64,000 nucleotides of DNA from Scenedesmus sp. ARA3 (Eukaryota; Chlorophyta; Chlorophyceae; Sphaeropleales; Scenedesmaceae): NCBI GenBank assembly GCA_004335835.1, contig RWJK01000938.1:1-64000 (forward strand), written 5' to 3'. Shown here piece after piece: positions 17,358 through 64,000 of this stretch. A program made the translations under genes and the position numbers. The first letter of the stretch is position 1, and the number at the start of each line of letters is the position of its first letter. Under the pieces are notes generated by a model. It searched no databases. It had not been told where the DNA came from and saw only the letters and a program-made list of their open reading frames with translations.

Positions 17358-19208
17358 ATGGTCCACGAAGATGTGGATGTTCGGGATGTACATAAGCTGC
17401 GGCGCCTGAGCAGCATCACCACCACGGCGCAGTACTCACACCCACAGTGAGACCCAGCCTTCTTCTGCTGTTGCAGCTTCACTATAACATTTGCCAGCCT
17501 TGCTGCATGATGTAACCAACCCGATGAACACGCGGCAAGCACGTTCATAAGCATGGCAGGATTGTGCTAGGTGGTGCCATCATGCACAGCACAGAAGCGG
17601 TTAAATGCTGTTGAAATTTCACATGCATGGGTCTAGCTGTGTTTCTGAAGACAGCGACCTATACATTAGGTGTGGCTGCTGACAAAAATCTTTGACTATC
17701 TGATGGCTGCTGTAAGACACGGTGTCTTAGACACCTAGGTGTCTTAGACACCTTGCTGCTGGCAGGTGTCTTAGACACCTTAGGTGTCTTAGACACCTTG
17801 CTGCTGGCAAAACCCCCTCATACAGCTGAGACCAAACCCTGCTGCCCTGGGGGCGCTCTCTGCTAGTGTGTGTGCTCCTTTTGACACTTCCGCCGTCGAC
17901 TGAGCCTTGCTGTATACAAGTTTTGCCCAAGCCTGCATGGAGGTTGCTGCCGCCTAACATCACCGCAACATAAACCACCCACCACCTACCAAACCTCAAC
18001 CCTCCAAATGAGTCTCAGACCTGGTGAAACTGCTGTGCTGCATGCAATTGCGCTTGCAGGAAAAGGCGTGGCTCCTGCCTATCAGCATGGTGGCACTGGT
18101 ATCTGGCCTGGGCCATCCCAGGCCTGGGCATGTTCAGCGAGGCTTACATCATCTTCTCTTTAGGCCTCACCAAGCCACTGCAGACAGCTATGTTCCCCAC
18201 ATGCTTCAAGACACATGATGACTGCAAGGAGACCATCACGCATGTGCAGAACTACATCCAGATCGTGGGCATCATTGTGGGTGGGTGACTCCGCAGCAGT
18301 AGTAGCAGCAGATCAGCAGGCTGCATACAGCGAGGCGTCAACCGCAACTGCATCTGCAGCAGCAGCAGCTGTTAGCGGCTGTCAGGAAACAGAGCAGTTG
18401 CAGCGTCGGCTGTAGGATGATCGCTGAAGCTTTGCACCAGGCTGTTTGCGCAGCACATTTAAATCTTGCCTTGTTGTCACTTAGACAATTTGGGCGTGCT
18501 ATGGCCAGCTGAAACAGCGGCAGCCTGCAGCACAACATCGCATGTGCCAAACAGCAGCATGCCTGCCACACACGTACACATGGCTTCCTGCCATCACCTT
18601 TTTAACCTTTTGCAAACCACTGTTTCAAACCTGCTTGCCGCCACCTTCAGGCATGCTGCTGTTTGGTGCGCTGGTTCACATCATTGGCCGTCGCTGCCAC
18701 ATCTAACACTACCTGTTACTCCTTCATCATTGTTTCCGACTCAATCTTCATGTTCCAAAACTGCTGCTGTGTTTGATGTGTGTTTGCAGGCATGCTGCTG
18801 TTTGGTGCACTGGGTGACATTATCGGCCGCCGCTGGGGCAGCCGCATTGTGGCCAGCATCATGCTGAGTGGCACCATCCTGCTCACCTTCAGCCCCCTGG
18901 TGCCCAACCCAGCCACCTTTTTGAACCTGTACATCTTCGCCGCCACCTGGTGAGGCTTGCGGCAGCAGCAATCGCTGTGCTGCAATGCAATCACAATTCA
19001 TGCCTGCAGCAGTAGCCTTTGTTATCATCCATAGCTTGTATGCTGCAGTATGGTGCATGCCTTCAGGTATGGTGCTCAAGTCTTGCGTGCATGACAACAC
19101 TATGCAATCGGCAACCGATGCAGCCAGCAGGGCTGTACAGCAGTACACACAGCAGCAATACAGCAAGCGCCTGCACTGCCTGCACCTCTGCCTTTCACTG
19201 ACTACCCG

Positions 19209-19245
<37 letters not shown>

Positions 19246-20319
19246 TATGGCTTTGGCGTGGGTGGCGAGTACCCCATGGCGTCCGCATCTGCTGCGGAGC
19301 GCAGCCAGAGCGACGAGGCGCTGCGCCATAGGCGCGGAGAGCAGGTCGTGCTCACCTTCTCCGGCCAGGTGCGTGTGATGCTGTGGCGGCTGTAGGTGCA
19401 GTGTGTTGATACTTTGATTTGCGTGAGGGCGGAGAGCAGGTCGTGCTCACCTTCTCGGGCCAGGTGCGTGCATGCATGGAAGCTTGGTGCTGGGATGCAC
19501 TGCGTCAGATAGTGTGGACAGCAAGATGTGCTCACCTGTTCCGGCCAGATGAGAACAGGGAGTTGGCAGGGTCGATGCAGCTGGTTGCACTGTGTGACTG
19601 TTCATATGCGGCAGTTTTTGAGTTGTGGCCGGACACCGCAATTAACCTGGTGGAATCAATGCAGGCAGCTGGGAGGGCATACAGGCAACAAGCAGGAGTA
19701 GGTGCAAGTGCGCTCTGGCTGGCTACAGTACATGCTGCTGCTCCTGCTGCTGCTGCTGCTGCTGCTGCTGATGTGCCATCCGTGCTGCAACTACTGCTGC
19801 AGGGCATGGGCAACTTTGTCAACGGCTGTGTCATCTTGATTCTCATGGCGATGTTTGGCATGACCGGCACCACCTTGGACCCGATTGCCAGCCGCAACGT
19901 GGTCATGATCCAGTTTGCCGTTGCAGGAGCTGTGTCGCTGTTCATGGTGCTGTGGAGGTGGTTCAAGCTGAAGGAGTCAGAGGTGAGCCTGCAACACAGC
20001 TGCAGCAGCAGCAGCAGGATAGCAGCCGTGGCAGCTGCGGTACAGTGGAACAATAACATCATGCAAGGTGTTTGCACCATGCATGGCAGGTGGCGCAGCT
20101 GTGGAAGAGTTGAAGTGATGATTGTAAGAACAAGGAATAGTGTGTGCAGCTGGCACAACTTGCGGCCGTGAAGGATGTTAATCTGTTGCACCATACTGCA
20201 GTGCATTGCCTGTGTTGTGCTTGTGGTGCTTACGTTGTTTTTGTCTGTGCCGCCTGCAGGTGTGGAAGACTGAGAAGCATGACTTTGACGAGCTTGCAGG
20301 ACTTCTTGAACAACAACCG

Positions 20320-24222: not shown

Positions 24223-25927
24223 TTTGACTCACAAGCTCGTTAGGTACCTGCCGTCAGTCGAGCTGCAAACTTTGCTCGAGCAGCATCGCAAAGAAGGCAC
24301 AGTTGGTGACACCCTGCTCGTCCTTCAGGTGCAATAGCTACAGGCTTGTGTGTAACGCTCTGAAACATTCTTCAGCTGGGTCTCACTGGCCATTGACTGT
24401 CTGCAGCATGCCCCGGTGTTCACAGTAGGCAAGCGTGGCAGTGCCCAGGACTTTCACACGGATCCTGAGGTGGGCTGACTTGATGCATCGGCTTCAGTCG
24501 TTATGCGTCTGCCAATAACTATTTGTCGATGCAAGTAGGCATCAAGCACTCGCCAACATCTTGATACTGCTTTAGCTGCTTGCTGTTGCTGCTACTGCTA
24601 CTGCTACTGCTACTGCTGCAACCCATGACATTTGTCAGGGCTAAGGTCTTCACACACCAATGCAGATCAACACTTTATAACCTTGTACTGAAAAAATACA
24701 ACTGCACCAGCACTGCATGTGCAGCCAGAGCCTCTGAGCCACCCGCCAGGCACCACACCGCCAGCTGCCAGGTCAACCCTTCATCAGCCACTGCCAGTCA
24801 AACCTCCCTCACTGCTTGCCTGCCCGATTACCCTGCAGGAGCTGCGCCGCACTGGCTTTGAAATTTACAGCGTGCCCCGTGGTGGGGAAACGACTTACCA
24901 TGGGCCCGGCCAGCTAGTGGCATACCCCATCATCAACTTGAGGCAGCTAGGGCTAGGGGCCAGGGCTTTTGTAGAGGGTCTGGAGGATGCTATGGTGCAG
25001 GCAGCCGGCTGCTTTGGCATCGAGGTAAGCTAGCACATCTGCATATGAGATGTATGCCGACTGGCTAGCTGCACTGGCGGTCACTGCCATTGCAGTTTTG
25101 TTGCGTGTGTGTGCCCTGCTGTGACATACGAGCGAGTGCCTCCGCTGCTGCAGCTGGCTGGCCGTGTGGTGCAGCGCAGGACACGCAGTAGTGTGTGGTA
25201 GGTTGTTTGCGAGTGCCAGTATGCAGCAGTGTATGTGGCTAGAAGCGGGACATGTGCTACTGTACATGCATTACGTGTCCTGCAAGCCGCAGGAGTTGCT
25301 TCAGCCGTTGTCCTGCAAGCAGCTGCGTCACACGGCAGCCGTCCTGCAAAGGCCCGGCTTTACACAGCGGTCATCTTACAAGCAGCTGCTTGCAGTTAGC
25401 ACGTCGGGAGTGAGATTGCTGGTCCTGCAGGCGTGCATGGCGCAGCTGCTGTGCGGTTTTGCATCCTGGCGCAGCTTAGCGTATGGAAGCAAATGGGCTG
25501 CAGCTCTTTTGAGGGTGTGAAGCTGACAGCTGCTCTGCAAGCACGCAGGAGGCGGCCCTCCTGCAAGTGCCAAGCGCAGCTGTCCTGCAAAGCCGCACGG
25601 GCAACGTTCCTGCAAGCACATGCAGCAGCTGTCCTGCAATCGTTCAATAGGCGCCCATCATGCAGCCCAACAGCTGGTTGCATGTGCTGAGGCTGTGCCA
25701 CAGGCCCTCAGCAACAGCACCGCACAGAATCAGTTCAGGGCTGCTTGCCGGCTAGCGCTGACAAACAGCATCTGCGAGTTCGAGCACTGGCCATGTCGCG
25801 ACACCATGCTGCTGAATTCTGTACTGCGCTGATGATGATGCCATTGTTGCCATTACCTGCGCTTCTGCTGGTGCTGCTGCAGGCGCGAGGGCGCGTGCCA
25901 GGCAAGACTGGTGTGTGGGTGGGTGAG

Positions 25928-25966
<39 letters not shown>

Positions 25967-26022
25967 ACGTGTTGCAGGCGCGAGGGCGCGTGCCAGGCAA
26001 GACTGGCGTGTGGGTGGGTGAG

Positions 26023-26073
<51 letters not shown>

Positions 26074-26130
26074 AACGTGTTGCAGGCTCGAGGGCGCGTG
26101 CCAGGCAAGACTGGCGTGTGGGTGGGTGAG

Positions 26131-26178
<48 letters not shown>

Positions 26179-27152
26179 AACGTGTTGCAGGCGCGAGGGC
26201 GCGTGCCAGGCAAGACTGGCGTGTGGGTGGGTGAGCGCAAGATAGGCGCTGTTGGTGTGCGCATCTCTCACGGCATCAGCAGCCATGGCGTCGCCCTCAA
26301 CGTGACAACAGACCTCAGCCATTACAGGTGGGCTGGGCAGCAGGCAGTTCCAAGCTGCATTATTGTCTTATGTAGAAATACTTGACATTACATTACAAAT
26401 ACACAGCTGCGCACCTGCAAGCAATGCTGGACCAAGAGAGCCCTGCCAATACTCTCCTGGTGTGTGGCTGCTATGTCGAGGGGGCGCTGATCCGCCTACT
26501 GCAGCTGAAACTCAGAACGCAGGGGTGGGTCTACAGGCATGGCTTAGCCAGCAACGGCAGCAGCAACAGTGCCAAAGCCATTTGCAGCTGGTGCTGCAAA
26601 AATTGGGTTGATGCCAGCATGCAGCTAGCTGTGTGGCAGGTTGTCAGCCGTGCATGCTCAGCAGGAGCTGCTGCCCTGCTGCTGCTGCAGCTGCAGTGCA
26701 CTGCTGCCTGCTTGCATGGCCCAGCAACACTAAATAGACATATTCTGTGCATCATAGTCAGTGGGTATTGCCTAGGCAGCAGTGCTAGCGTATGTTGCCT
26801 TTCGGCTGCTGGTGCGTGAGCTGGTGCGATGCGCAGAGCGCTCGCAAATCATTCACAGCGCCATCCTGTGTGTCACCTCTGTTTGTTGCTTTGCAGGCAC
26901 ATTGTGCCCTGTGGCACTCCAGACAAAGAGGTGACTTCAGTTCAGCGGGAGTTGCAGCAGGCTGGCACATATTTTGAAGCTGGTGGACAGGGCGGGGATG
27001 CTGCCAAAGATGACGCGCTGCTGCAGGACACTGGCACAAACCTGCTGAAAGAAGCAGAACAGCACCTGGTGCGCTGCATTGCCGGTGTATATGGCTACAC
27101 AGACGTGCAGGACATTGTGGAGGAGCAACTGCTGCCAACCACGGCACGCTAG
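24223..27152 (+). CDS. LIP2: Octanoyltransferase (LipB family), 5' exon unresolved
   Basis: Transfers octanoyl from acyl carrier protein to lipoyl domains, the first step of lipoate synthesis, in mitochondria or plastids. Visible exons are 24223-24328, 24407-24469, 24839-25024, 26191-26327 and 26897-27152; phases agree and give 248 residues. Family motifs in order: [42 protein letters not shown] with the conserved Lys, SHGVALNV, and [14 protein letters not shown] with the catalytic Cys. About 80 residues of less conserved tail follow. Exon 24223 starts with a split codon, so at least one upstream exon, presumably with the organelle transit peptide, is missing from the model. The intron before 26191 contains three partial copies of the next exon separated by CTG arrays. 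Confidence 0.88.
25883..26245 (+). repeat. Fourfold tandem repeat: exon start plus (CTG)n
   Basis: Units beginning at 25883, 25978, 26086 and 26191 each hold about 50 bases of exon sequence (encoding [16 protein letters not shown]), the first three followed by a CTG array of differing length and a TTGCAG acceptor. Only the last unit continues into the conserved KIGAVGVRI. Unit spacing is 95, 108 and 105 bp, so length varies with the CTG tract. Confidence 0.92.
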
Positions 27153-38999: not shown

Positions 39000-40425
39000 T
39001 CACAGCTCTGTATGGCCTCCGCCCGCCGCCACACCTTGCTGCTGCTGCTGCTGCCTTGCCTGCGCCATCTGCTGCATGCGCTGCTCCAGCAGCAGCGGGT
39101 CCTGCTGGTATGGCATAAGTCCGAAGCACCACATCACGCCCCACAGCACAAACACCATGCACATGATCTTCACAGCCTGCAGGTGAGCAAAATAACAGGC
39201 CAGCAGCAAGCAGCAGCGAGCAATGCAAAGTTTAGTGCAGCTGAAGACAGCAGCTTGCAAGACAATTACACGGTTGCTTACAAGCAATACGCGTGAGGAG
39301 CGTGCCGGACGGTGGTGAGTAGTTAGGAAATATCTTTGCATGCATGCGCCGCGGTCGCTTGCTGAGCCACTGACAGACATAACCCGGCGCACATGAACAG
39401 TCCATGGGAGTTCTGGCAGTTGCACGCAGTTTGTGAACACGGTGAACCCGTGCCGAAGCACCTTGCAGCCACCAGGCTTGCACCCGCTTCAGCATCTGTT
39501 GATCACATAGTACAGCTGTTCACTTTGCCACACCTGCTGGAAGCTGTTGAGCACTGCAAGCAAGAAGTGACGCTATCGATGCCTCTTCCCACCTGCTTGA
39601 AGCTGCCAAGCAGTACGACTCTGACAGTTGCGCCATGCAATGCAGCGGTCGTTCAAGTCTGCTCTTCCCACCTGCTTGAAGCTGTTGGCACTTCTTATCG
39701 CATGCACTCCCAAAAGCTCTCCTCAAGCGGCTTCAGGCCGCAGCGCACAATGTACAACAGGGACGCCATGCTGTGTACTTATCGCACCTGCTTGAAGCTG
39801 TAGATCTAATTGCATTGCATTTGCACCAGCCAGATGTCCTCCCACCTGCTAGGGCTTCCCAGTTTCTACCATAAGCAGTGCTGCCGTGCAATGCAGACTT
39901 CTGGATACCCTGCTGCCGCCCACCTGCTTGAAGCTGTTGAGCACTTCGTACCTCATGCGCTCCCAAAAGCTCATGTCGGTCACAACACACAAGGACACCG
40001 TGCAATTCAGCTGTGCTTATCAGCCCACCTGCTTGAAGCTGTTGAGCACTTCGTATCGCATGCGCTCCCAAAAGCTCATCTCCTCAAGCGGCTTGAGGCC
40101 GCGGCTGCGAGCAGCAGCAGCGGCTTCCGCTGCAGCAGCAGCCTGCGCCTGCTGCAGCTGCAGGTCCAAGTCCAGCTCAGCATCTGATTCAAGCAGCAGC
40201 AGCAGCAGCAGCAGCAGGAGCAACAGCAGCAACATCGTGCATCAAGCAGTGTGCGCAATGTTCTGTATGTGCAGCTGCAGGTCCGGGTCCAGCTCAGCAT
40301 CTGAATCGTGAAGCAACGCCAAGCAAAGCAGCAGCAGCAGCAGCAGCATGCATTGAGCAGTGTCTCAGAGGTTTGAATAATTGCAGCTGTAGGTCAAGGT
40401 CCAGCTCAGCATCTGGTTTGATTGT

Positions 40426-40480
<55 letters not shown>

Positions 40481-43400
40481 TAGCAACATCATGCATCAAA
40501 CAGTGCACGTGATGTTCTGTATGTGAAGCTGCAGGTTCAGATCCAGCTCAGCATCTGGTTTGTGAAACAGCAAAACAAACAGCAGCAGCAGCAGCAGCAG
40601 CAGCAAACTTCACACACACTGCCTGAAGGATCCAAGAAGTGCAGCTGCAGGTCCACGTCCAGCTCAGCATCTGTTTACGTGGAGCCAAGCCAAGCCAAGC
40701 AGCAGCAGCAGCATGCATTGAGCAGTGTCTAAGACGTTCACTAAGTGCAGCTGCATGTCCACGTCCAACTCAGCAAGTACTTTGATTCAGCAACGCAGCA
40801 GCAGCAGGCGGCAAGCAGCAAAAGCACGTGTTAAAGAGTGCGCAAAGAGAGCTGATCGAGTGTGATTGCGGGTTGAGGCACAGGTCACATCACCAGCTGA
40901 ATACACAGCAGGAGCAGCTGGAGCAGCAAAGTCACTGCGGTGGCCCAGTGGCTGTGGTTGCAGGCCGGCAGTGCGGTGCGCACTGTGATGCCAGCAGGGT
41001 ACTGCACATATATCAGCACAAAGCTGTACAGCTGCGCGGCAGCTGTGGGCGCAGCACCATCCGTATGCCAATAAGACAACAGGCAGGTACCAGACCATCC
41101 AGGTACACGCGACACACCCGGACGTATCCAGCACGGCGTAATCAAGCAAGTAAGCACGTTATAATGCGCACCTGCAGCATCGGCTGGCGCCGCAGGCTGG
41201 ATCTCTGCAGACGCTGCCGCACTTGTCTTCCTGCCCATGGCAGCATCACCTGCTGCAGCTGCCACAGCACCACCAGCAGCAGCACCAGCAGCGGGCGTTG
41301 CAGCCGGCCAACCCGCTATAGCTGCCACAGCAGCGCTGCGAGCTGCTGCGGCTGCTGCGGTCAAACCTTGGACCTGCTGTGCGTCCTGCTCCATGAGCTG
41401 TGCCAAGGTTTGACCAGGTTTGACCAGCACGTCCTGCAGGCCCAGGCGCATGCCGCACTCCTGCATCACTGAGTGGAACTTTTTGAGCTTGGCTGCGACT
41501 GCCATGATGTGGCGCTCGCCCTTGTACCTGCAGCAGCAGCAGCAGCAGCAGTAGCAGCCAAGGATGCAAATGATGTTGGCAATGGCGTGTGGAAGGTGTG
41601 GCGGTCAGTAAGCAACACTACAAACACAAGGGAGACCATCACACGCATGAACTTGTGCACAAAACTTGTTGCACCGACATGCAACCCACCCCATGCACTC
41701 ATCATCCCGCCAAGTGTAGCTGACGTACCAGCCAGGATGGTGCCCCCTTATGCATGCCACAGTGCAGCTTGATCCAGCATGCACCAACTCAAGCATCATC
41801 AGCAATCATCGTCAAAGTCTTTCGCAGCATTATGGAGCAGGCGACAGCAGCCAATCTGTTCTCATTGCACTAACTTTTTGACTGTTTGCCAGGGCCATCT
41901 CATGCAGCGCTGCCTGCACAGCAGGCTCGGAGGCATCCCCCTGGAATGACTCATGCACTAACAAATTTGCCGAGTCCAGGGGCAACGCGAGCCAGGGTGA
42001 TGCTTCATCAAGCCTGCAGCTGCCCAGGCTGACACAACACGCAACAGCCACAGCATTCTGTATCAAGTGCATGCGCAGCAGCCAACCACAGCCACGCAGC
42101 AGCCAACCACAGCCAACTAAAGCCTAGGCAGCCTACTCACTTTTCGAAGCTGTTGGCCAGGGCCATCTCATGCAGTGCTGCCTGCACAGCAGGCTCCGAG
42201 GCATCCTCCTGGAATGACTCATCGATGCGCAGCGCTGCCACAGCACGGTAGCAGGTCAGCAGCTGCTGCGCGCGGCGCACCTGCAGGACGGCAGTACGAT
42301 GCAACCAAACAGGTGTGAACTTGTATCAAGGGGAACGCGCACATGAGGGGCGCAAGCGGCATGTCTAGGTGTGAGTAACGCATGCACGCATGTGCTGGTA
42401 ACAGCTGCACGCTCAGGCGCTGCTGCTGTGCGACCTAACGTCCACATCCCAGCCCCTATACGGCCCAGTCACCTGCTCCAACTTGGCTGCCTTCCTCTGG
42501 GCCAGCAGGACACTAAAAAGACGCGTTTACTTCTTGAGTCAAATGTACCGATAGCCTGCTTGCATGCATCTGACTGTAAGCTCTCTGTCAACAAAGACTG
42601 ACAAAGCTCTCCCCACGGACTCTGACAGGCTCTCAAACACACACCTGGCTAATAGCCTGCCTTGCCTCTGCTGACAGGAAGTCTAACTGACCAAGCTCCT
42701 GCTCCGACATGCGCGCAAATGTATCCACTTTGCGGCCCTGCTCTGCCGCATTCAAGCCAGCAAACTGCACAGCGTACGCAGCAGTGGGGCTACTAGCTTC
42801 TGGCCTGGCAGCTGCTGCAGAGTCTGCACGTGCTCGAGCTGCTGCTGCTGCTGCATCCTTGCTGTTGGCAGCACTGCTGCTTGCAGGAACAACCCCAGCC
42901 TTCTTTGCATGGCTGCTGCTGCTGCCAGCAGCATCCTTCAGCTGCTGCCCAAGCTGCTGCTGCACTTCTGCTGTATCTGCTGCTGCCACCTGCCAAGGCA
43001 TCAAGCCCTGAGCACCTGCCAGGCCGGCATCTGCACCCTGCTGCAGCAGCAGCTGCACACAAGCAGCAGATCCAGCCATGGCAGCTGCATGCAGGGGCGT
43101 TGCTAAGTCGCCGTTGAGTGCATCGTTGATGAAAGCGCTGCTGCCAGGCTGCTGCAGCAGCAGCTGCAGCACATCTTTGTGGCCCATGCCAGCAGCGATG
43201 TGCAGTAGGGTGTACCTGCAGTGGCAGCAATGCACAAGCAGCCGCAGCAACAACACAAAATGTGTGGCATGCTGAGCTGTTGCTGTTTAGTGACAGCGAC
43301 AGGCGTAACAACGGTCAGACTGCTGTACGCCACTGCCCCCTGCTGTGCAGCCAGATTCCCCCTCTGCAACAGCGTCTGATACATGACATGTGTGCTTCCT

Positions 43401-48500: not shown

Positions 48501-51243
48501 AGCGGTGTGCTTCAGCGTCATCAACAGCGTGGAGAAGATGTTCCGGTGCGGCCAATTTTCAGATAGCGCCTCTGCTGGACACAACACACAGCCTGACCGC
48601 AAGGAACCTCCCTGTCGTATTTGGCACTTGCTCTTAGCTGACACATGCATGCAAGCATAAAGCAAATCGCCCACCCTTCCTGGTCCATCTCTTCCCACTG
48701 TCGGCAACTGGCCTGCTGTGCCACTTTCATTTCAACTTGCGCTGAACGCGTGCAGGTTCAGCGTCGTGGACCCCTGGATGCACGAGAAGAACGACGGCTT
48801 CCCGTTGCTGTACGTGCGCAGCCACGCTGCGCGCCTGCCCGGCAGTGTGGTGCGCGACTGGCTGGTGCGCTGCAAGGTGGCGCTGGCAGCCAGCCAGGGC
48901 CGGCTGGTGCTGAAGGTGCGCGGCTGATTGACTGAATGGAATGCCTGCAGCATAACGTGCGGGTCTGTAGGTCTGCTGCAACAAGGCACGTTTGAGTCAG
49001 CAGCGTGGCATTACTACGGGGGTGTTAGCCTGCTGCCGAGGCAGCCCCTTCGCAGCTGGTGCAGAATACCACTGCTGCCTGCGTGCGATTCAGGGATTCC
49101 TCACTGCTGCTGTTGCCCCATGCTGTCCCTTTTCCCTCACCCCTGCAGGAGCTTTACAGCCACTACAGCCAGCAGGTGAAGGACACCTCGCTCAGCCTGT
49201 CTGACCCGCACAAGGCCTACCTGCTGCGCAAGGCGGTGCACTACTTCAACACGCGGCTGCTGTACAGGCCCAACATCGACAACTACCCCACCAACAAGCC
49301 CATCATTCAGGTGCAGCGGCACCCGTTGGATTGTCACTTTCACTCGTGCGCAGCTCAGCTTGAGCTGACCCTAGCCGCATCTAGCATGACAAACTTGTGC
49401 TGCTGCTGGGTCTAAGCCACAACATGGAGTGCAAAAACTGGTATTGAGGTTCTTGCTGCTCTGTCGCTGCCCCTTGCAGGAGCTGATTGCAGATGACATC
49501 GCGCCCGGTGCGCAGCTGTCAGCCATGCTGCCGGACATCCTGGACGATGCCTCCAGCCTGACTACACTCAGCCTGGCTGGCAACGGCTTGGACGATGCTG
49601 CGCTGCGGGGCGTGATGCTGGCGCTGGCTGAGAACGTTGACGTGCAGCTGCAGCACCTGGACCTGAGCGGCAACCAGATGCTGCCAGCGGTGAGTTGGCA
49701 TGCTGAGTAGACTGTGCATTGGGCGAAGGGGAGCCAGGGTGGAGTGAACAGGAGCCCCCTGCACTGTGCTGTGCAGACTGCAGCAGACACCAGCACGGGT
49801 TCTTGTTTAGGCAAACCCTAATAATGTTCCTCTGTGTGTGCTGCCTCAGGGCGCTTCTGCAGTGGCGACAGTGCTGTGCAACGACCACAGCATATATAGC
49901 CTTTCGGGCTGACGTGGGACGCAGTACACTGCATTACTGACGACGCGCTGCTGTGTGTGCTGCCACAGGGAGCTGCTGCAGTGGCCACGGTGCTGTGCAA
50001 CAACCACAGCATCTATAGCCTGCGGCTGGCGGGCTGCCCTGTGCGTGATGAGGGCGCTGCAGCACTGGCGGAGGCACTGAAAAAGAACATCTCGCTGTAC
50101 AAGCTGGACCTCAGCAACTGCCAGGTGGGCAGTTTGGTACTGCAGTACTGATAGTACTACTATGATAGCAGCTCAAACTTTGAGCTTGAGCAGGTTCAAC
50201 CAGAATATCTTGTGAGTGCCGCAGTTGTGCGGCACCGCATAATGTGCCGCCGGCAATATGTGCATCAGGATGGCAGCAGCACAGGCACAGATAGCCTGGT
50301 GCATCATTCGCAGCAAGCCCTTCGGCCGTACATGTTTGTGTGTTTGTGGTTTACATCACCTGCAGATTGGCCCTGAGGGTGCGTTGGCGCTGGCTGATGC
50401 GCTGAAGGTCAACCCAGTGCTGTCGTCTCTGGACATGTCCAACACACGCATAGGTGAGCAACTGCACTGCAGTGTGATGCATGCACCGCAACGTACAGCC
50501 CGGAAGCATGCCTGTCATAACCATGGAACCTGGTGTACATTGCCAGTGCTGCTATCAGTGGTGCCTGTCCCAACTGGCTGCCTGTGTCGTCCACTGACGG
50601 CTGGCTTGGTGGATGCTTATCAGCACAGCTTCCATGCTCTTGTAAGACGGTGCTCTGCTGCTGCCGCTGCTGCGCAGGCTCTCTGGGCTGTGAGGCGCTG
50701 TGCAAGGCGTTCAAGGTGGCTGGCAGCAGCGGCCTGAAGGAGCTCAACCTGAGCCACCTGCCACTGGACGACCGCGCTGCTGCTGCTGTGGCTGGTCTGC
50801 TGGCCAGCAGCCGCGTGCTGGAGCGGCTGCTGATGACGCACAGCAACATTACAGACGCGGGGGCCCAGCTGATCTGCAACGCGCTGCAGGTGGGTGCGAC
50901 TCTGAGACAGCTGCAGTTGTTTTGTTTGTGTATCGTGGCAGCTCACTCGAGCTTGGCCTGTTTGGAGTTGCTGAACAGCTGCAGTGGCTACAACCAGTGG
51001 TGGCAGCAGCTCTGCTGTGATGGGCTCAGGTGTAGATTGTGCCTGGTTGGCAGGCAGGTGAACACTGTTTGATGGCACTGTCACATGTCAGCTTCTCTCA
51101 CCGGGCTGTTGCCTGCCTGCTGATGTTGTGTGCTGCAGAACAACGGCACGCTACAGTTCATTGACGTCAGTGAAGGCCACTGCATGGATGCCTCGTGGCA
51201 GAAGCTGCTGAACCACGTGGTGAAAGGCAAACCCAAGGCCTAG
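45561..51243 (+). CDS. Multi-pass membrane protein with C-terminal leucine-rich repeats
   Basis: Not assigned to a named family. Fifteen exons: 45561-45608, 45861-46088, 46522-46628, 46868-46991, 47287-47418, 47697-47801, 48029-48148, 48451-48545, 48756-48915, 49149-49310, 49480-49689, 49969-50124, 50366-50453, 50678-50889, 51139-51243; all phases fit, 683 residues. After an acidic, Gln/Pro-rich N-terminus come about four hydrophobic segments: VLINVLIIFPWSCVLLLSWL (93-112), WFLWVISQVSLILHVITVG (145-163), PIFVIAFYGFCHLCTAV (about 178-194) and LLFSMPCCIIIGIEYGIF (about 264-281). The middle, about 290-430, is soluble and charged. From about 430 to 650 ribonuclease-inhibitor-type leucine-rich repeats appear (LTTLSLAGNGLDDAALRGVM, LYKLDLSNCQ, LKELNLSHLPLDDRAAAAV). 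Such repeats usually bind proteins. The short first exon is fitted by phase and ATG only. Confidence 0.75.
49831..49913 (+). repeat. Partial copy of LRR-gene exon 12 start
   Basis: GCTGCCTCAGGGCGCTTCTG and the following bases repeat the acceptor and first 65 or so bases of exon 12 (49969) about 122 bases upstream, with several changes. Frame is lost at TGA 49909, so it is a decoy. Confidence 0.8.
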
Positions 51244-56745: not shown

Positions 56746-59700
56746 ATGGAGGCACAGCGGAGGCTGCAAATTATCTCGGGCCATTTGGTGCCTCATGGCG
56801 CATCTCGGCTCGATGTGCTGGCGCTGCAGAGGCTGCTAGATCACGACAATCTTGAGCTACGAGCTCGCATGAAGGACTTTTTCAAGGATGAGCTCTATGT
56901 GCCTCGGTAGGCAGCACCGGCATGGCTGCAGTAGCCAGCAGCAGCAACAGCTTTCGGCATGCTTAGTGCAGGCATGGCATCATGCCAGGAGTAAGATAAG
57001 CAATGAAACCGCATCATGTGGCATGTTCATTACCAGCTGGCAGTGGTTCGGGCCTGTAGCCTGCTGGAAAGGTAGTGCAGCAGCACTTGCAACAGCAGTA
57101 GCCATGCAGCACAGGCCTTCACTGCAGCAACATGATGGCGGAACTTTGGATCGTGCATCTTTGCTGTTGAAAACAGTAGCATGCACATCCACGGAGCAGA
57201 GGTCCTCTGGCTCATGCTCCCGTTATTTTGCATGAAGCCCTGGTGCATGCAGCATGCAAGAACCAAGGGCAATGGCTGCAGCTGTGCTTCTGCAGCAAAC
57301 AGGCAGGATGCTATAGCAGGCAGCATTCACCGCGGGGCCATTGCTGGTGGTTCGTATCAATCAACATCACCTCAATATCCTGCAACAGCAAACACCCAGC
57401 CGCTGTCCCCCACGTCTCTGTCCCCTGTCCTGCAAGCTCCCGCAGCTCTCCCGCAAGCTCGCCCCATTCCCTGCAAGGCTGCCTCATTTTCTGCAAATAT
57501 TTCCTGCAAACTTCCCATGCACTCCTGCAGGTACGACATGGACCTGCGCTACAGCCGAGAGCTGGCACTGCAGCGTCTGGCCAAGTTCTGCCGCGCTGGC
57601 TTTGTCAGCGTGACAGACTTCAGGCTGTCCCCGCTGAAGATCTTTGCTGCTCATGAGGTGGCGGCGCTGGTGGATCCAAGCATGGCGACAAAGATGACAG
57701 TGCAGTTCAACCTGTTTGGTGAGCTGCGTTGTAGTGAGCCCTGGCAGCAACAGCAGCAGCAGAAGCTAGATTGTATCGCTGGTTGGCCCCAGCATGGCGA
57801 CAAAGATGACGGTGCAGTTCAACCTGTTTTGTGAGGAACTTGGCAACTGATGCTGGCAGCAGCAGCAGCAGCAGGGTTGCCACATGTACGTCTGTGCAGG
57901 TTGACCTCTTTGGTGAGCTGCTTGGGGCTGCCTCAAACCTTAAGACCTTAAATCCCACTTTGCGCACAGCAGGTGCGCTGAAAGCAGACACTGCAGCACC
58001 TGCTGCAGCTTGAGCAGGCAGTCTACGCTGCAGACCTCCAGCAGCAGCAAGTCGACTGCGAGGTTTACGGCAGCAGCAATGGCTTGAGGCAGCACGCCAC
58101 ACAATGTACTTTCCCGGTGCTGTTGCGCTGAAGCTTGCAGCTGCTGCTGCTGCTGCTGCTGCTGCTCATTACTGCTGCTGCTGCTCATTGTTGCTGATTG
58201 CTGTGCAGGCGGTACTGTGCTCAAGCTGGGCACTGCGCGCCACCACCAGGGCCTGCTGCGGGGCATTGATAATGTGGACGCCATCGGCTGCTTCGCACTG
58301 ACTGAGCTGGGCTTCGGTGAGGAAACTATGCATTTGTATGTGCTGCCAGCTTGTAGGAAATCAAAATATCTTGATGCTTGCTGCACGAGAGTGGGCTGCC
58401 ATCGGCTGCTTTGCGCTTACGGAGCTGGGCTTTGGTGAGGAGGGTTCCATTTCATGCATTTATGCCGGCTTCTTGCGTGTTGGTGTGTGCTGACTGCTTG
58501 CTGCATGAGAGTGGGCCGCCATCGGCTGCTTTGCACTGACAGAGCTGGGCTTTGGTGAGGCTTGCATGGAGCTTGCCATCATTCGTGCGGGCTTCTCGGC
58601 TTGTTGGTGTGTGCTGGGTGCTTGCTGCATGACAGTGAGGTGCAATCGGCTGCTTCTGCACTGACAGAGCTGGGCTTTGGTGGGTGCCGAGCATGGACTG
58701 CATGTCTTTGGAGTGTCCTGCAGGCAAACGCGGCGCAGATGCAGACCACCGTCACTGACGGCTAGCCACAGGCACGTGTGGCAGCTTCAGCACATTACAC
58801 TGCTCTGTGTTTGTGCAACTGCTGGGCTTTGCAGGCAACAACGCGGACCAGATGCAGACCACCGCCACCTGGCAGCTGATAAGCAGCAGCTTCATCATCC
58901 ACAGCTGACTTTACTTATCACCTAGTGCCTGCTGCTTGTGTTTGCTGCAGGCAACAACGCGGTGGAGATGCAGACGACCGCCACCTGGCAGCCGGCCAGC
59001 GGCACTTTCATTATTCACAGCCCCAGCACACTCAGCCAGAAGTACTGGATCACCAACAGCGCGGTGCACGCTCAGTGGTGCGTTGTGTTTGCGCAGCTGC
59101 TGATGGGCGGCCAGAATCACGGCATCCACGGCTTCCTCGTGAGGTGCGGGGCTGTCATGCTGTTATGTGGCTGTTATGACAGTGTTACATTGCCATTTGT
59201 TTTCTTGTGATGATGAGCCTTGCTAACCACGGCATCCACGGCTTCCTCGTGAGGTGCGGGGCTGTTAAGCGGCTGTTATGACAGTGTTACATGGCTATTT
59301 GTCTACTTGCGATGATGAGCCTTGCCAACCACGGCATCCACGGCTTCGTGGCCATGTGCGTGGCTGTTATGCTGCGGTCAAACGCTCTGTTGCATGATTT
59401 TATTGTTACATAGGGAGGACACATGGGCTGTGACATGTTATTGTTGCGTCTCAACCGCTGCTGCTGCTGCCGCCGCAGGATCCGCAACGACGACATGGCG
59501 CCCTGCAAAGGTGTCACCATCCACGACATGGGACACAAGATGGGCTGCTCTGACCACCACCACTGCTGCTGCTGCTGCTGCTGCTGCAGGATCCGCAACG
59601 ACGACATGGCGCCCTGCAAAGGTGTCACCATCCACGACATGGGACACAAGATGGGCTGCTCTGACCACCACCACTGCTGCTGCTGCTGCTGCTGCTGCAG

Positions 59701-60917
59701 GATCCGCAATGACGACATGACGCCCTGCAAAGGTGTCACCATCCACGACATGGGACACAAGATGGGCTGCAACGGCGTGGACAACGGGCAGCTGTCTTTT
59801 GAGCAGTACTCGGTGCCGCGGGAGGCGCTGCTGAATGCATTCAGCGAGGTGGCAGCAGACGGCAGCTTCAGCAGCAGCATCCCCAAGGCGCGGGACAGGT
59901 TCCTCAAGGTGTGCTGCCATGTCACGGGCATTTGTTTACGTCAAGTTGTGCCAGCTGCACTCGTTCGCTGCCGCAAGCAACAACAGCTGCCATGAACAGT
60001 GATGCTGTTTAGTTTGGTTTGCTGGGCAGCAACCTGTCGCTTGCACTGCATGTGAGATGATGGTCCACACACATATCTTGGCGCCGCGTGACGCGCTGCT
60101 GATTGCATTATGCAAAGTGGCATCAGAGGGCAGCTTCAACAGCAGCATCCCCAAGGCACGGGACAGGTTCCTCAAGGTGTGTTACATGGCATGTTCCATT
60201 GACCGTCACATGACATGTGTTTTGTGCAAGTACCACCTTGCTTGCGGGGTGATGTTGTATTGTTATTCTGCGCAGCTTTCTTTCGTATCATGCCGAGCAT
60301 GTGAAGCGCTGGTATACAACACCGCTTAATGAAGATCACCTGCACTTATGGACTTTGAAAAACCCAGCATCACTTTGCCACCTCCTGCAGGTGGCAGACC
60401 AGCTGCTGTCGGGCCGCATCTGCATCGCCAGCTTGATGCAAAGCGTGAGCAAGCTCTCAATGTTTACTTGACACCCTAGGCTGGTCTGAACATCATTGTG
60501 TTGCTTCCTGCAGGTGGCAGACCAGCTGCTGTCGGGCCGCATTTGCATCGCCAGCATGATGCAGAGCGTGAGCAAGCTGTCCCTCACCATCGCGATGCGC
60601 TACGCGGGCAGTAGGCTGGCTGTAGGCCCCACGGGCCACAGCGACACGCCCATCCTGGACTACCAGCTGCAGCAGCGCGCGCTGCTGCCGCTGCTGGCAC
60701 GCACCGTGGCGCTGCAGGTGGGTGGGGTTGGTGCGCTTGGTGCGGCTTGCACTGCCGACTTTGTTGTGTGGCTGGTGCGGTGCAGACAGTGCCTGCTGTG
60801 GGTGTGTCAAGATGCTTTTAGTATCTAGTAACACATGCACATGCTGTGCGGTCACATGCTGCTGCTAGTAGCGGCAATTGATGGCATCGCGGAGGTTGGA
60901 ATTTAGCTCACGTCTTA

Positions 60918-60948
<31 letters not shown>

Positions 60949-63314
60949 ACCGCAGATCGGCCTCAACTATGTGAAGGACCGCTGGGCAGCCGCATCAGGC
61001 TTCGACGGCAAGCCAGTAGACCCCAAGGTGCGGCGTATAGAACCCTAGACCCTAGATGCTACACTCTAGCAAGTACAACTCTGGTTTTGTCCTGAGCTCC
61101 TGCAGCTATTAGGCCTGCAGCTCGCTTACCTGCTGTACGTGTTTGCATGCTGCTGTGCGCAGTTACCAGCACATAACTTTGTGGTACTGCTGCTGCTGCT
61201 GCTGCTGCAGGTTGGCCTGGAGGTTGTGGTGCTGTGCTGCGCCATCAAGCCGCTGTGTGCGTGGAACGCAGAGACATGCGCTACCACCAGCAGGTGAGCT
61301 GCTGTCACTGTATGCCTGCCTGCCTACCTGCCTGCCTGCCTGCTGCTTGCTGTCACTCTCTGCTCACGGTTGTGTCTTGTTGCTGCCTTGTTGTCTTGTC
61401 GCCTTGTGTGCTGCAGGGAGCGCTGCGGCGGGCAGGGCTACCTGAGCGTGAACCGCTTCCCGCTGTGTCGCACTGCTGCATAGTGCCCATGTCACACTGT
61501 GTCCTTGCTGCGGTGCGGTCTTGTTGCCTTGTGATGCAGGGAGCGCTGCGGGGGCCAGGGCTACCTGAGTGTGAACCGCTTCCCGCTGTGTCACACTGGT
61601 GCGGTTTGCATACATCACGATGTTGTTGTGTACATGTGTCACACTGCTGTCCCTGGTCTTGTTGCCTTGTGCTGCAGGGAGCGCTGCGGCGGGCAGGGAT
61701 ACCTGAGCGTGAACCGGTGCCTGCTGCGTCACACTGCTGCCGTTCACATGTATCACACTGCCGCTGTGTGTATTTTGATACCGGGATTGCATTTTGCAGT
61801 TAAGCCGGCGAGCGAAGTGGTCAGCAAATGATGTATCTGACCAGGATAGTGACGAATAACAGTTTTTTTTTTTGAAAAATTTTGTTGTTCTGCTTCGTGC
61901 TGCAGGGAGCGCTGCGGCGGGCAGGGCTACCTGAGCGTGAACCGCTTTGGGGAGCTCATCGGCTTTGCGCATGCGGGCATGACGGCAGAGGGAGACAACA
62001 GGTGACACGGCTGCCTGGCAGCCCCTGCCTTTGTTGTGAGTATTACAGTGCGTCTATCCTATACTTGCCAAGCCGCTGCTGAACATGCTGACTTAGGTGG
62101 CTGTTGCAGCACAGTTGCCAGAATGTAACCAACATGTTACCGTGTCATTTTTGTTTCTGCAGGGTGCTGATGCAAAAGGTGGCAAAGGAGCTGCTGGGCA
62201 TGCTGACCTGGCCAGGCATCGCAGCGCGCCTGGCAGCAGCAGAGCTAGCAACAGCGCCGCTGGCAGCAGGCAACCTGGCAGCGCTGCATGCAGCAGCGGC
62301 GGCGGCTGGCAGCAGCAGCAGCAGCAGCGGTGCAGGGCTGGACTTGGAAGTGCTGCGGAAGATGATGCAGGTGGGTGTCTGCGAGGGTGCAATTTCCGGA
62401 CTGCTGCTGTACCGGCGTGGTGCTGCTGCTGCTGCTTGATCAACCCAGCTGGTTGCTTGTTTGGTACTCGTGCTGCTCTGCCGTGTGCTGCACTGGCACC
62501 TGTTTGCCGCAGGTGCGCGAGATGCGGCTGCTGCGGCAGTTGGCAACTGTGATGCGTCGTGGCCTGCTGCTGTTTCAGTGCTGCTGCTTCACTACTGCTG
62601 CTGCAGCTGCGTATAATATCCGTACTGACTGTTACGTTGTGTCGCGCGTGCACTGGTGTTACATTTTTGCCGCAGGTGCGCGAGATGCGGCTGCTGCGGC
62701 AGCTGGCTAGTGTGATGCGGCAGGCCTCAGCGGCGGGCGGCTTCTTTGACGCATGGATGAAGCAGCAGAGCGACCTGGTGCAGGGCGCGGCACAGGCCTT
62801 TGCAGGTGCGCACATGTGACATGTCGTGCGCAGCAGTCGGTTGTGGTTGTGGCTGCAGCAGAGTGACCTCATGCAGGGCGCGGCGCAGGCCTTTGCAGGT
62901 GGGCATGCACACCGTTGTTTCTGCAGCAGTTGAGCTCAGGTAGATAACAGCAGTTTGGTCGGTTGTGGTTGTGGCTGCAGCAGAGCGACCTGGTGCAGGG
63001 TGCGGCGCAGGCCTGCACAGGTGGGCATGCACATGTTGTTTGGACAGCAGCTGCGCTTGTGTCTTCAATAGCATAGCAGCAGAGTGACCTCGTGCAGGGC
63101 GCAGCACAGACCTTTGCCGGTGGGCAGACACATTGTAGTCGCAGCAGTTGAGCTTGTGTTTGCATGACTGTGCGGCTGCATATCACCAGCACACTCACCA
63201 ACACTGCTGCTGCTGCTGCTGCTGCAGAGCGTGAGGTGCTGGAGGCCTGCCTGCGCTGCCTTGAGGGCCCCGGCATGACTTCCGGGCTGCATCTCAACAG
63301 CACACACATTAACA

Positions 63315-63370
<56 letters not shown>

Positions 63371-64000
63371 GCAGAGCGCGAGGTGCTGGAGGCCTGCCTG
63401 CGCTGCCTTGAGGGCCCCGGCATGACACCCGGGCTGCGCGAGCTGCTGGCGCCGCTGGTGGCGCTGTTTGCTGCTGCAGCGGTGGAGCGGGAGCTGGCGT
63501 GGTACCTGAGCCAGGAGGTGGTGCCGGCAAAGGTGAGGGGTGTGATTGCTGGATACGTGTTGTTGATGATAACGGCATTCGTTTGATTTATTTTCTATTT
63601 ACAAAAGGGAGCGGGAGCTGGCGTGGTACCTGAGCCTGGAGGTGGTACCGGCCAAGGTGAGGAACGTGTCTTGCTTTGTCACAGCAAACTAGCACCTTGC
63701 AAGTGTGTTTGCACTGTGTACACATCAGCTCGCTGCATGAGTGGCTGTTTGCCAGGCGTGAGTTTTGCAAGTGTATTGCGTTGCAACAGTGTCATGGCGC
63801 AACCGGTGCAGCTGTCACGCATGACTAGTGACTTTCTTCTGCGGCGGCCTTCGTGCCATGACACATGTTTTTTTGCATGTGCCTGTGCTGCATGCAGGTG
63901 GGGCAGCTGGTGCCGGACTATGTGCGGCAGCTGGTTGCTGCTGTTGCCCCCAATGGGCAGCAGCTGGTGGCGGCCTTTGGCATCCCTGACCACCTGGTGG
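56746..64000 (+). CDS. ACX: Acyl-CoA oxidase, C-terminus beyond window
   Basis: Flavin enzyme that oxidises acyl-CoA to trans-2-enoyl-CoA with release of H2O2, the first step of peroxisomal beta-oxidation. Thirteen exons: 56746-56906, 57531-57718, 58209-58316, 58951-59143, 59701-59908, 60514-60717, 60956-61027, 61211-61293, 61906-62001, 62163-62370, 62676-62805, 63375-63532, 63898 to the edge; phases agree, 637 residues so far against a usual 650-700. Landmarks are [28 protein letters not shown] (flavin contact region, about 144-155), [45 protein letters not shown], and [16 protein letters not shown] at 406-421, with the Glu and Cys-Gly-Gly motif of the active site. The peroxisomal targeting tail would lie beyond the window. 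Most introns contain partial copies of flanking exon edges, so automated gene calls here are likely to be wrong. Confidence 0.93.
57784..57920 (+). repeat. Two copies of acyl-CoA oxidase exon 2 3' end
   Basis: AGCATGGCGACAAAGATGAC with the next 25 bases recurs at 57791-57835, and a shorter GTTGACCTCTTTGGTGAGCTG at about 57899-57920, both after the real donor at 57719. Confidence 0.85.
58401..58682 (+). repeat. Three copies of acyl-CoA oxidase exon 3 3' end
   Basis: ATCGGCTGCTTTGC..GAGCTGGGCTTTGGTGAGG occurs at 58401-58440, 58521-58560 and 58645-58682, spaced about 120 bases. Two keep the donor GTGAGG; the third has TGGGTG. The true exon end is 58316. Confidence 0.92.
58723..58906 (+). repeat. 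Two copies of acyl-CoA oxidase exon 4 5' end
   Basis: TGCAGGCAAACGCGGCGCAG at about 58723 and GCAGGCAACAACGCGGACCA at 58834-58906 precede the intact exon at 58951. The second runs about 70 bases in frame and ends at TGA 58904. Confidence 0.9.
59227..59360 (+). repeat. Two copies of acyl-CoA oxidase exon 4 3' end
   Basis: CACGGCATCCACGGCTTCCT with GTGAGGTGCGGGG recurs at 59229-59265, and CACGGCATCCACGGCTTCGT at 59330-59349, following the true donor at 59144. Confidence 0.88.
59479..59700 (+). repeat. Two copies of acyl-CoA oxidase exon 5 5' end with CTG arrays
   Basis: Units starting at 59479 and 59590 encode [20 protein letters not shown] and then run into GACCACCACCACTG(CTG)n. The third, intact copy starts at 59701 ([11 protein letters not shown]). 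The frame is open across all three. Confidence 0.93.
60083..60182 (+). repeat. Copy of acyl-CoA oxidase exon 5 3' end
   Basis: About 100 bases resembling 59813-59912 (GACGCGCTGCTGATTGCATT .. CGGGACAGGTTCCTCAAGG), with its GTGTGTT donor, in the downstream intron. Confidence 0.88.
60391..60457 (+). repeat. Copy of acyl-CoA oxidase exon 6 5' end
   Basis: GTGGCAGACCAGCTGCTGTC through AGCGTGAGCAAGCTCTC precedes the intact exon at 60514, with a matching CCTGCAG acceptor. It ends in a stop (TGA 60468). Confidence 0.9.
61417..61724 (+). repeat. Three copies of acyl-CoA oxidase exon 9 5' end
   Basis: GGAGCGCTGCGG..GGGCTACCTGAG with acceptor CAG occurs at 61417, 61540 and 61678, before the intact exon at 61906. 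All include the active-site [12 protein letters not shown] region or a near version ([14 protein letters not shown]). Confidence 0.93.
62513..62549 (+). repeat. Copy of acyl-CoA oxidase exon 11 5' end
   Basis: GTGCGCGAGATGCGGCTGCT and the next bases recur upstream of the intact exon at 62676, with the same GCCGCAG acceptor. Confidence 0.9.
62863..63290 (+). repeat. Copies of exon 11 3' end and exon 12 5' end
   Basis: AGCAGAGTGACCTC..CAGGGCGCGGCGCAGGC recurs at 62863, 62983 and 63079 with GCAGGTGGGC-type donors (GCCGGTGGGC in the last). A copy of exon 12 start (AGCGTGAGGTGCTGGAGGCC) with CTG array lies at 63228, before the intact exon at 63375. Confidence 0.9.
63316..63370 (+). repeat. (CTG)n array before acyl-CoA oxidase exon 12
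   Basis: About seventeen CTG units run almost to the CCGCAG acceptor at 63374. Confidence 0.92.
63606..63659 (+). repeat. Copy of acyl-CoA oxidase exon 12 3' end
   Basis: GGGAGCGGGAGCTGGCGTGG through GTACCGGCCAAGGTGAGG repeats the end of exon 12 (63482-63538) with a good donor. Confidence 0.9.

Follow-up and report, generated by a model that had tools for sequence, protein, structure and literature searches.

Why do the introns of an acyl-CoA oxidase (ACX) gene in a green alga hold repeated pieces of the exons that they separate, and how did these pieces arise? The gene lies in the last part of a stretch of 64,000 nucleotides (nt) from Scenedesmus sp. ARA3 (contig RWJK01000938.1, positions 1 to 64,000), the whole of which is called the window below and which belongs to an 87.27-Mb draft assembly of 1,567 contigs. 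In this study, we found that these pieces are incomplete copies of exons, many already decaying, and that they come from a process acting on many genes of this alga. The product shares 97% protein identity with the Tetradesmus obliquus protein P0001 (UniProt A0A383WDA5) and also matches solved acyl-CoA oxidases, and judged by sequence the host is a T. obliquus-like alga.

Exon-edge copies in the introns of the ACX gene

Spliced alignment of window DNA to P0001 gave 13 real exons with GT-AG introns, running from 56746 to past 63999, and the gene extends beyond the span 57531-63659 delimited by the initial annotation. The exons obtained by this alignment are as follows.

56746..56906, + strand, exon 1, start codon placed at 56746 by homology, no copies
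57531..57718, + strand, exon 2
58209..58316, + strand, exon 3
58951..59143, + strand, exon 4
59701..59908, + strand, exon 5
60514..60717, + strand, exon 6
60956..61027, + strand, exon 7, no copies
61211..61293, + strand, exon 8, no copies
61906..62001, + strand, exon 9
62163..62370, + strand, exon 10, no copies counted
62676..62805, + strand, exon 11
63375..63532, + strand, exon 12
63898..63999, + strand, exon 13, continuing past the window to 64073 in the gene-finder model

A BLAST search of exons against introns, with cut-offs of at least 25 nt and at least 75% identity, yielded 32 matches, 21 of them in an intron adjoining the source exon; the 11 found elsewhere pair exons 6 and 10 with sequence rich in CAG/CTG. 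In 50 rounds of dinucleotide shuffling, the introns yielded a mean of 0.26 matches across all introns and a maximum of 3. During curation the CTG-rich match 63205-63248 was removed and a decayed copy at 59310-59355, which falls below threshold (~67-73% identity depending on the method), was added. The resulting 21 copies occupy eight of the 12 introns lying wholly inside the window, none being found in introns 1, 6, 7 and 9, and the presence of partial exon-edge copies claimed by the initial annotation is thereby borne out. All rows below come from BLAST, except for the copy added in curation and the last line, which comes from the flank scan.

57777..57830, + strand, copy of the exon 2 3' end, followed by GTGAGG
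58391..58434, + strand, copy 1 of the exon 3 3' end, GTGAGG donor
58506..58554, + strand, copy 2 of the exon 3 3' end, GTGAGG donor
58630..58679, + strand, copy 3 of the exon 3 3' end, with indels, GTGGGT donor
58724..58775, + strand, far copy of the exon 4 5' end, decayed (indels, stop)
58835..58905, + strand, near copy of the exon 4 5' end, TGCAG acceptor
59208..59253, + strand, copy 1 of the exon 4 3' end, followed by a GTGCGG donor
59310..59355, + strand, copy 2 of the exon 4 3' end, decayed, added in curation
59479..59548, + strand, far copy of the exon 5 5' end, 111-nt unit
59590..59659, + strand, near copy of the exon 5 5' end
60077..60176, + strand, copy of the exon 5 3' end, 100 nt, 87% identity
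60391..60458, + strand, copy of the exon 6 5' end, 94%
61417..61458, + strand, far copy of the exon 9 5' end, 100% over 42 nt
61540..61581, + strand, middle copy of the exon 9 5' end, 93%, three differences, all synonymous
61678..61716, + strand, near copy of the exon 9 5' end, 97%
62513..62565, + strand, copy of the exon 11 5' end
62855..62898, + strand, copy 1 of the exon 11 3' end
62977..63020, + strand, copy 2 of the exon 11 3' end
63075..63118, + strand, copy 3 of the exon 11 3' end
63228..63290, + strand, copy of the exon 12 5' end, 95%
63608..63656, + strand, copy of the exon 12 3' end, 94%
64156-64233 and 64315-64392, + strand, two further copies of the exon 13 3' edge (exon 63898-64073), past the window

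The placement is mirror-image, as had been noticed before: copies of 5' edges lie upstream of their exon and copies of 3' edges lie downstream. Counted by exon, exon 2 has one copy downstream, exon 3 three downstream, exon 4 two upstream and two downstream, exon 5 two upstream and one downstream, exon 6 one upstream, exon 9 three upstream, exon 11 one upstream and three downstream, and exon 12 one on each side. With one exception, which starts at base 6, upstream copies take in the exon from its first base, and downstream copies end within six bases of its last base, the added decayed copy stopping eight bases short. The near and far copies of exon 5 are identical over their 70 bases and over the 35 spacer bases compared, and in general the ACX copies differ among themselves at many sites. 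The initial annotation had described identity as high and the events as recent, which holds for some copies and fails for the rest, the identity to the exon ranging from ~67 to 100% per copy.

Occurrence of exon-edge copies across the genome

A wider sample of 235.8 kb from the same genome comprised the window with a further 10 kb, two loci of ACX paralogues, 14 arbitrary stretches taken at regular contig numbers (three of them without a predicted gene above the score cut) and one CCT gene, CCT1, picked because copies had been seen in an earlier CCT/cpn60 search. A simple gene finder trained on these 235.8 kb predicted 33 genes with 245 exons. Around these exons 251 exon-to-flank matches were found, against none in one 2-mer-shuffled flank set. 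The mirror placement was again evident, since upstream matches touched the 5' edge in 74 cases versus the 3' edge in five, and downstream matches touched the 3' edge in 79 cases versus the 5' edge in four; 38 of the remaining matches span whole predicted exons, and 51, many of low complexity, touch neither edge. Cases in which the upstream and downstream copies of one exon overlap also occur in this flank scan. Among 213 local duplicate pairs within gene spans, 152 touch a predicted splice site; long low-identity self-alignments were disregarded as chains produced by permissive scoring.

For the prevalence counts, 22 predicted exons that turned out to be copies were excluded. Of the 20 genes in the 14 arbitrary stretches, nine had copies, as did 22 of 178 exon edges and 18 of 89 introns there, and the copy arrays made up 12.9% of intron bases, as compared with ~60% in CCT1. 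The proportion of edges with copies was 13/34 in ACX (a count that includes gene-finder exons beyond the curated model), 17/22 in CCT1 and 6/100 in the other eight genes of the window. Reading of the match table further indicated that, among the 11 CCT/cpn60 contigs that pass E<=0.001, at least five carry overlapping partial matches. The density of copies had been regarded as unusual for one conserved gene; this view has to be abandoned, as the same pattern recurs genome-wide.

Decay, splice sites and array structure

A frameshift or stop interrupts 40 of 153 edge-anchored copies, and 34 of 39 indels in copies are not multiples of three. The splice dinucleotide has been lost in 29 of 146 copies; upstream copies retain AG in 61 of 74 cases and downstream copies retain GT in 56 of 72, which supports the decoy splice sites proposed in the initial annotation. 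The counted copies are partial and one-edged, and hence bring one of the two splice sites, which sets them apart from duplicated exons of full length with both sites; the exception is a 27-nt CCT1 microexon with its own acceptor.

Successive copies are spaced with quartiles of 112, 126.5 and 174.5 nt, and arrays reach five copies. In arrays of at least two copies, identity to the exon does not fall over ranks 1 to 3 (90.4, 90.8 and 91.4%), and it falls at ranks 4 and 5 to 85.4 and 84.0% (five and two copies, respectively).

Copies in public protein models

The proposed link with alternative splicing finds support at annotation level, in two public models. P0001 holds an extra 16-residue piece that corresponds to the intron copy 61417-61464 read as exon, namely the exon 9 copy plus two codons of adjoining intron. 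The result is a repeated peptide that five other homologues (P0002-P0005 and P0007) do not have, and the copy accounts for this error-like repeat. Three substitutions and an indel of two residues separate P0001 from the window protein, so that P0001 probably derives from another assembly.

For CCT1, 451 of the 452 residues encoded by our exon models agree with T. obliquus OEZ86_010546 (P0121, 547 aa). P0123 (556 aa), which has the same locus tag and derives from a 4.4-Mb contig, adds nine residues, VLESGSVVP, encoded by 27 nt at L039:8823-8849. The exon ending at 8310 of that locus has four edge-anchored copies downstream, and the 27 nt lie in the third of them. GCGAG precedes the 27 nt only in that third copy and provides an AG acceptor. 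P0123 is a predicted CCT1 isoform with a putative copy-derived 27-nt microexon, and suggests a route to microexons. P0122 includes no CCT1 copy and is apparently cDNA, as its source contigs (<=1,853 nt) are far shorter than the gene. In P0241, the product of another ACX gene, the C-terminal stretch occurs once, and a predicted 105-nt 'exon' that is a copy is not included. P0121, P0122 and P0241 therefore all stand without copies that are present in their genes.

Origin of the copies

We favour, with a probability of about 0.5, local duplication of exon-intron junctions under selection for one intact exon, followed by re-duplication of the units and later recombination with the exon. A short local duplication, with a spacing of typically 110-175 nt, would first span a splice junction; because only duplications that leave one intact exon and a working splice site would persist, 5' ends would accumulate upstream and 3' ends downstream. 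A copy and its spacer would then re-duplicate as a unit, giving arrays of up to five. Recombination between exon and copy, by unequal exchange or gene conversion, would renew the exon-homologous part, with the flanking intron drifting past recognition, and exchange between diverged alleles would account for a surplus of synonymous differences. The copies would usually be removed with the intron, which they lengthen, and occasionally one would acquire a working splice site and become a microexon.

The initial annotation had assumed one simple tandem duplication per copy. That each copy is one contiguous duplication of an intron end and an exon edge, with one exon left intact and neutral decay thereafter, appears unlikely as a full account, though it fits the interior of the arrays well. 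The array periods and units (the 111-nt exon 5 unit and the 120-nt exon 3 array), the mirror placement and the duplicate pairs touching splice sites all agree with it; spacers of neighbouring units are homologous in 32 of 51 pairs, and over all 146 copies the homology extends into the intron beyond the null (median 33 nt, versus 9 in unrelated introns). However, among 84 outermost copies only 25 have a spacer homologous to the outer intron flank (p = 3e-4 relative to the inner pairs), while a spacer co-duplicated at the synonymous divergence of the exon copies was detectable in 81 of 84 simulated cases, and in 75, 63 and 45 of 84 under harsher settings. The contiguous unit expected of a small tandem duplication is thus seen within arrays and, on the outer side, in the minority of outermost copies, so that the assumption of a simple duplication is partly supported, agreeing with neighbouring units but not with most outer flanks. 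Homology often stops close to the splice consensus: ungapped identity is ~0.9 within the exon part and falls to ~0.5 at intron positions -6 to -12, the adjacent intron exceeds the 95% null level in 41% of the 146 pairs, and a CCT1 copy (L039:6458-6525) agrees with its exon at all 68 nt but continues, after GTGAG, into unrelated intron. A further difficulty lies in the ratio of nonsynonymous to synonymous change (N/S), which is 0.30 for exon-copy pairs rather than ~0.5.

More doubtful is duplication with filler, in which staggered breaks across the junction would be filled and rejoined with unrelated DNA between the copies (T-filler-T), the units being re-duplicated afterwards. It predicts what the spacers show, an outer flank that is mostly unrelated together with inner spacers that are mostly related, and neither of two tested spacers is repeated as a whole elsewhere in the genome. 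Experiments have shown that breaks with 3' overhangs can give rise to small tandem duplications (PMC8355091), and the spacers of CCT1 contain mirrored telomere-like motifs, as end-added telomere repeats would have, although this signal comes mainly from one gene. On the other hand, a random break would often leave long intron-side homology as well, and extension above the 99% null level is found in 10% of 88 outermost copies versus 41% of 58 inner ones.

The recombination step of the favoured reading is consistent with the 47 unit pairs that have alignable spacers, 38 of which show the exon part better conserved than the spacer, and with the excess of synonymous differences. For a neutral copy beside a constrained exon an N/S of ~0.5 is expected by our own reasoning. 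The observed value has a confidence interval (CI) of 0.25-0.36, and copy-copy pairs give 0.45 (CI 0.32-0.58); ACX alone gives 0.36 with a wide interval (CI 0.18-0.66). The difference S-2N is 0.087 overall (CI 0.055-0.115) and stays at 0.08-0.10 in all three divergence bins, a pattern that suggests a synonymous surplus present from the start and neutral decay afterwards; exchange between diverged alleles would yield such a surplus.

It is improbable that the copies are functional alternative exon ends maintained by purifying selection. The idea came from the differences seen in the copies of exons 3 and 9, which seemed synonymous. The low N/S would follow from such selection, as would the third-position bias among changes private to the nearest copy (27, 40 and 76 at the three codon positions, p ~1e-6), the splice dinucleotides that are mostly retained and the predicted isoform P0123 that uses part of a copy. 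Yet the N/S of frame-broken copies (0.35) is nearly equal to that of intact ones (0.27) and most indels break the frame, and on these grounds selection was demoted as the main cause; the edge-anchored copies have one exon edge and one splice site of two, and three protein models do without them. An assembly artefact by collapsed or looped repeats, as might be feared for short repeats in a draft assembly, is very improbable indeed, for P0001 carries the exon 9 copy with its two intron codons, P0123 carries sequence whose acceptor exists in one CCT1 copy only, so that copy-specific residues of these two copies recur in public models, and the copies are mutually different.

Several points nevertheless weigh against the reading that we favour. 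Gene conversion is not directly seen, and the six unit pairs with the most similar spacers (93-100%) show no better conservation of the exon part, thus its renewal is not visible in recent units. The contrast between inner and outer spacers would also arise from filler-bearing break repair, the median intron-side extension over all copies is well above that of unrelated introns, and an N/S of 0.30 matches partial purifying selection on copies equally well, as does the third-position bias. Little weight can be put on the slope test (median 1.5, CI -0.1 to 4.6). No copies were found in six aldehyde dehydrogenase contigs (13 of 62 candidates scored) or, at the lower sensitivity of the profile search, in six adaptin-like contigs, eight others with repeats in long open frames that resemble repeat proteins having been left out of this count; the copy-forming process is thus uneven among genes. 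Exon models other than those of ACX, CCT1 and locus L011 are unverified predictions of the self-trained gene finder, and the genomic evidence comes from a single genome.

Relation to known systems and significance

Related small tandem duplications from break repair are reportedly represented by the rice insertions of Vaughn and Bennetzen. Our search of the open-licence literature returned no description of the exon-edge copy pattern. Intron gain by tandem duplication (the AGGT model, as outlined in PMC4974935) is likewise local, includes coding sequence and splice signals and turns exon sequence intronic, with the ATP2A1 case of Hellsten et al. and a potato RdRp case described there, the latter duplicating intron-exon structure. 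The duplicated segments found here also carry coding sequence and a splice signal, and they sit between the exons of the ACX model; the AGGT model yields a new intron, whereas here none is apparent and existing introns seem to grow and absorb exon edges, repeatedly and in many genes. The small tandem duplications of break repair involving CST-Pol alpha primase (PMC8355091) are likewise short, local and direct and offer a plausible founding event, but the insertions treated in that part of the paper are <100 bp, whereas the spacings here mostly exceed 100 nt, the copies form arrays and the homology is often lost close to the splice site. In tandem exon duplication, and among mutually exclusive exons, exon sequence is likewise repeated in a neighbouring intron, but the copies here are partial, have one of the two splice sites and are in many cases decaying. 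Introners, as characterised in the cited text of PMC9860276, also change introns genome-wide, but neither of the two spacers searched belongs in its entirety to a repeat family, and the repeated sequence is the own exon of each gene.

Introns of T. obliquus average 462 bp, as compared with 230-302 bp in four other green algae (Table 1 of PMC5966456), and conspicuously long introns, with medians of 198-343 bp, are given for core-Reinhardtinia algae in the corresponding part of PMC8226300. Exon-edge capture may be one cause of the long introns of T. obliquus. Only tentatively do we go further and propose that the introns of this alga grow largely by repeated exon-edge capture, and that recombination with the parent exon would keep the pieces near coding quality, as a renewable store that could release in-frame microexons like that of CCT1; the process would then add substantially to the long introns of T. 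obliquus. The copies represent a visible and possibly ongoing source of intron growth built from the gene's own exons, in which pieces of coding sequence become intron and occasionally reappear in predicted proteins. They also offer many natural tests of splice-site choice, with the true site beside near-identical decoys in one intron.

Other features of the spacers and the window

An origin of the spacers as transposon or introner was considered and is not supported by the two of 146 spacers searched, one of which is unique. The other, which precedes exon 9, contains at window 61770-61850 a short dispersed repeat inside the exon 9 array, with matches at four further genomic sites (79-86% identity over 50-67 nt). 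A CTG microsatellite trigger was also rejected, (CTG)4 lying near the acceptor for 6 of the 45 edges that have copies and for 30 of the 171 that do not.

At the CCT1 locus (L039, G000:C1492:1501-11500), the spacers of downstream copies contain 61 TTTAGGG-type telomere-like repeats versus 4.4 in dinucleotide shuffles, and those of upstream copies 49 of the CCCTAAA type versus 2.3, in mirrored orientation. Telomere-repeat filler as a general feature was discarded, the signal being strong in CCT1 only and weak or absent at other loci.

Elsewhere in the window, single exon-edge copies lie in two other predicted genes, at 18651-18696, 19429-19463, 20260-20299 and 49850-49902. A 105-nt tandem array of 3.5 copies at 25878-26238 resembles a small exon with CTG-repeat intron around it, and a long internally repeated region at 39515-40928, in a predicted gene on the minus strand, gives several intron-only duplicate pairs.

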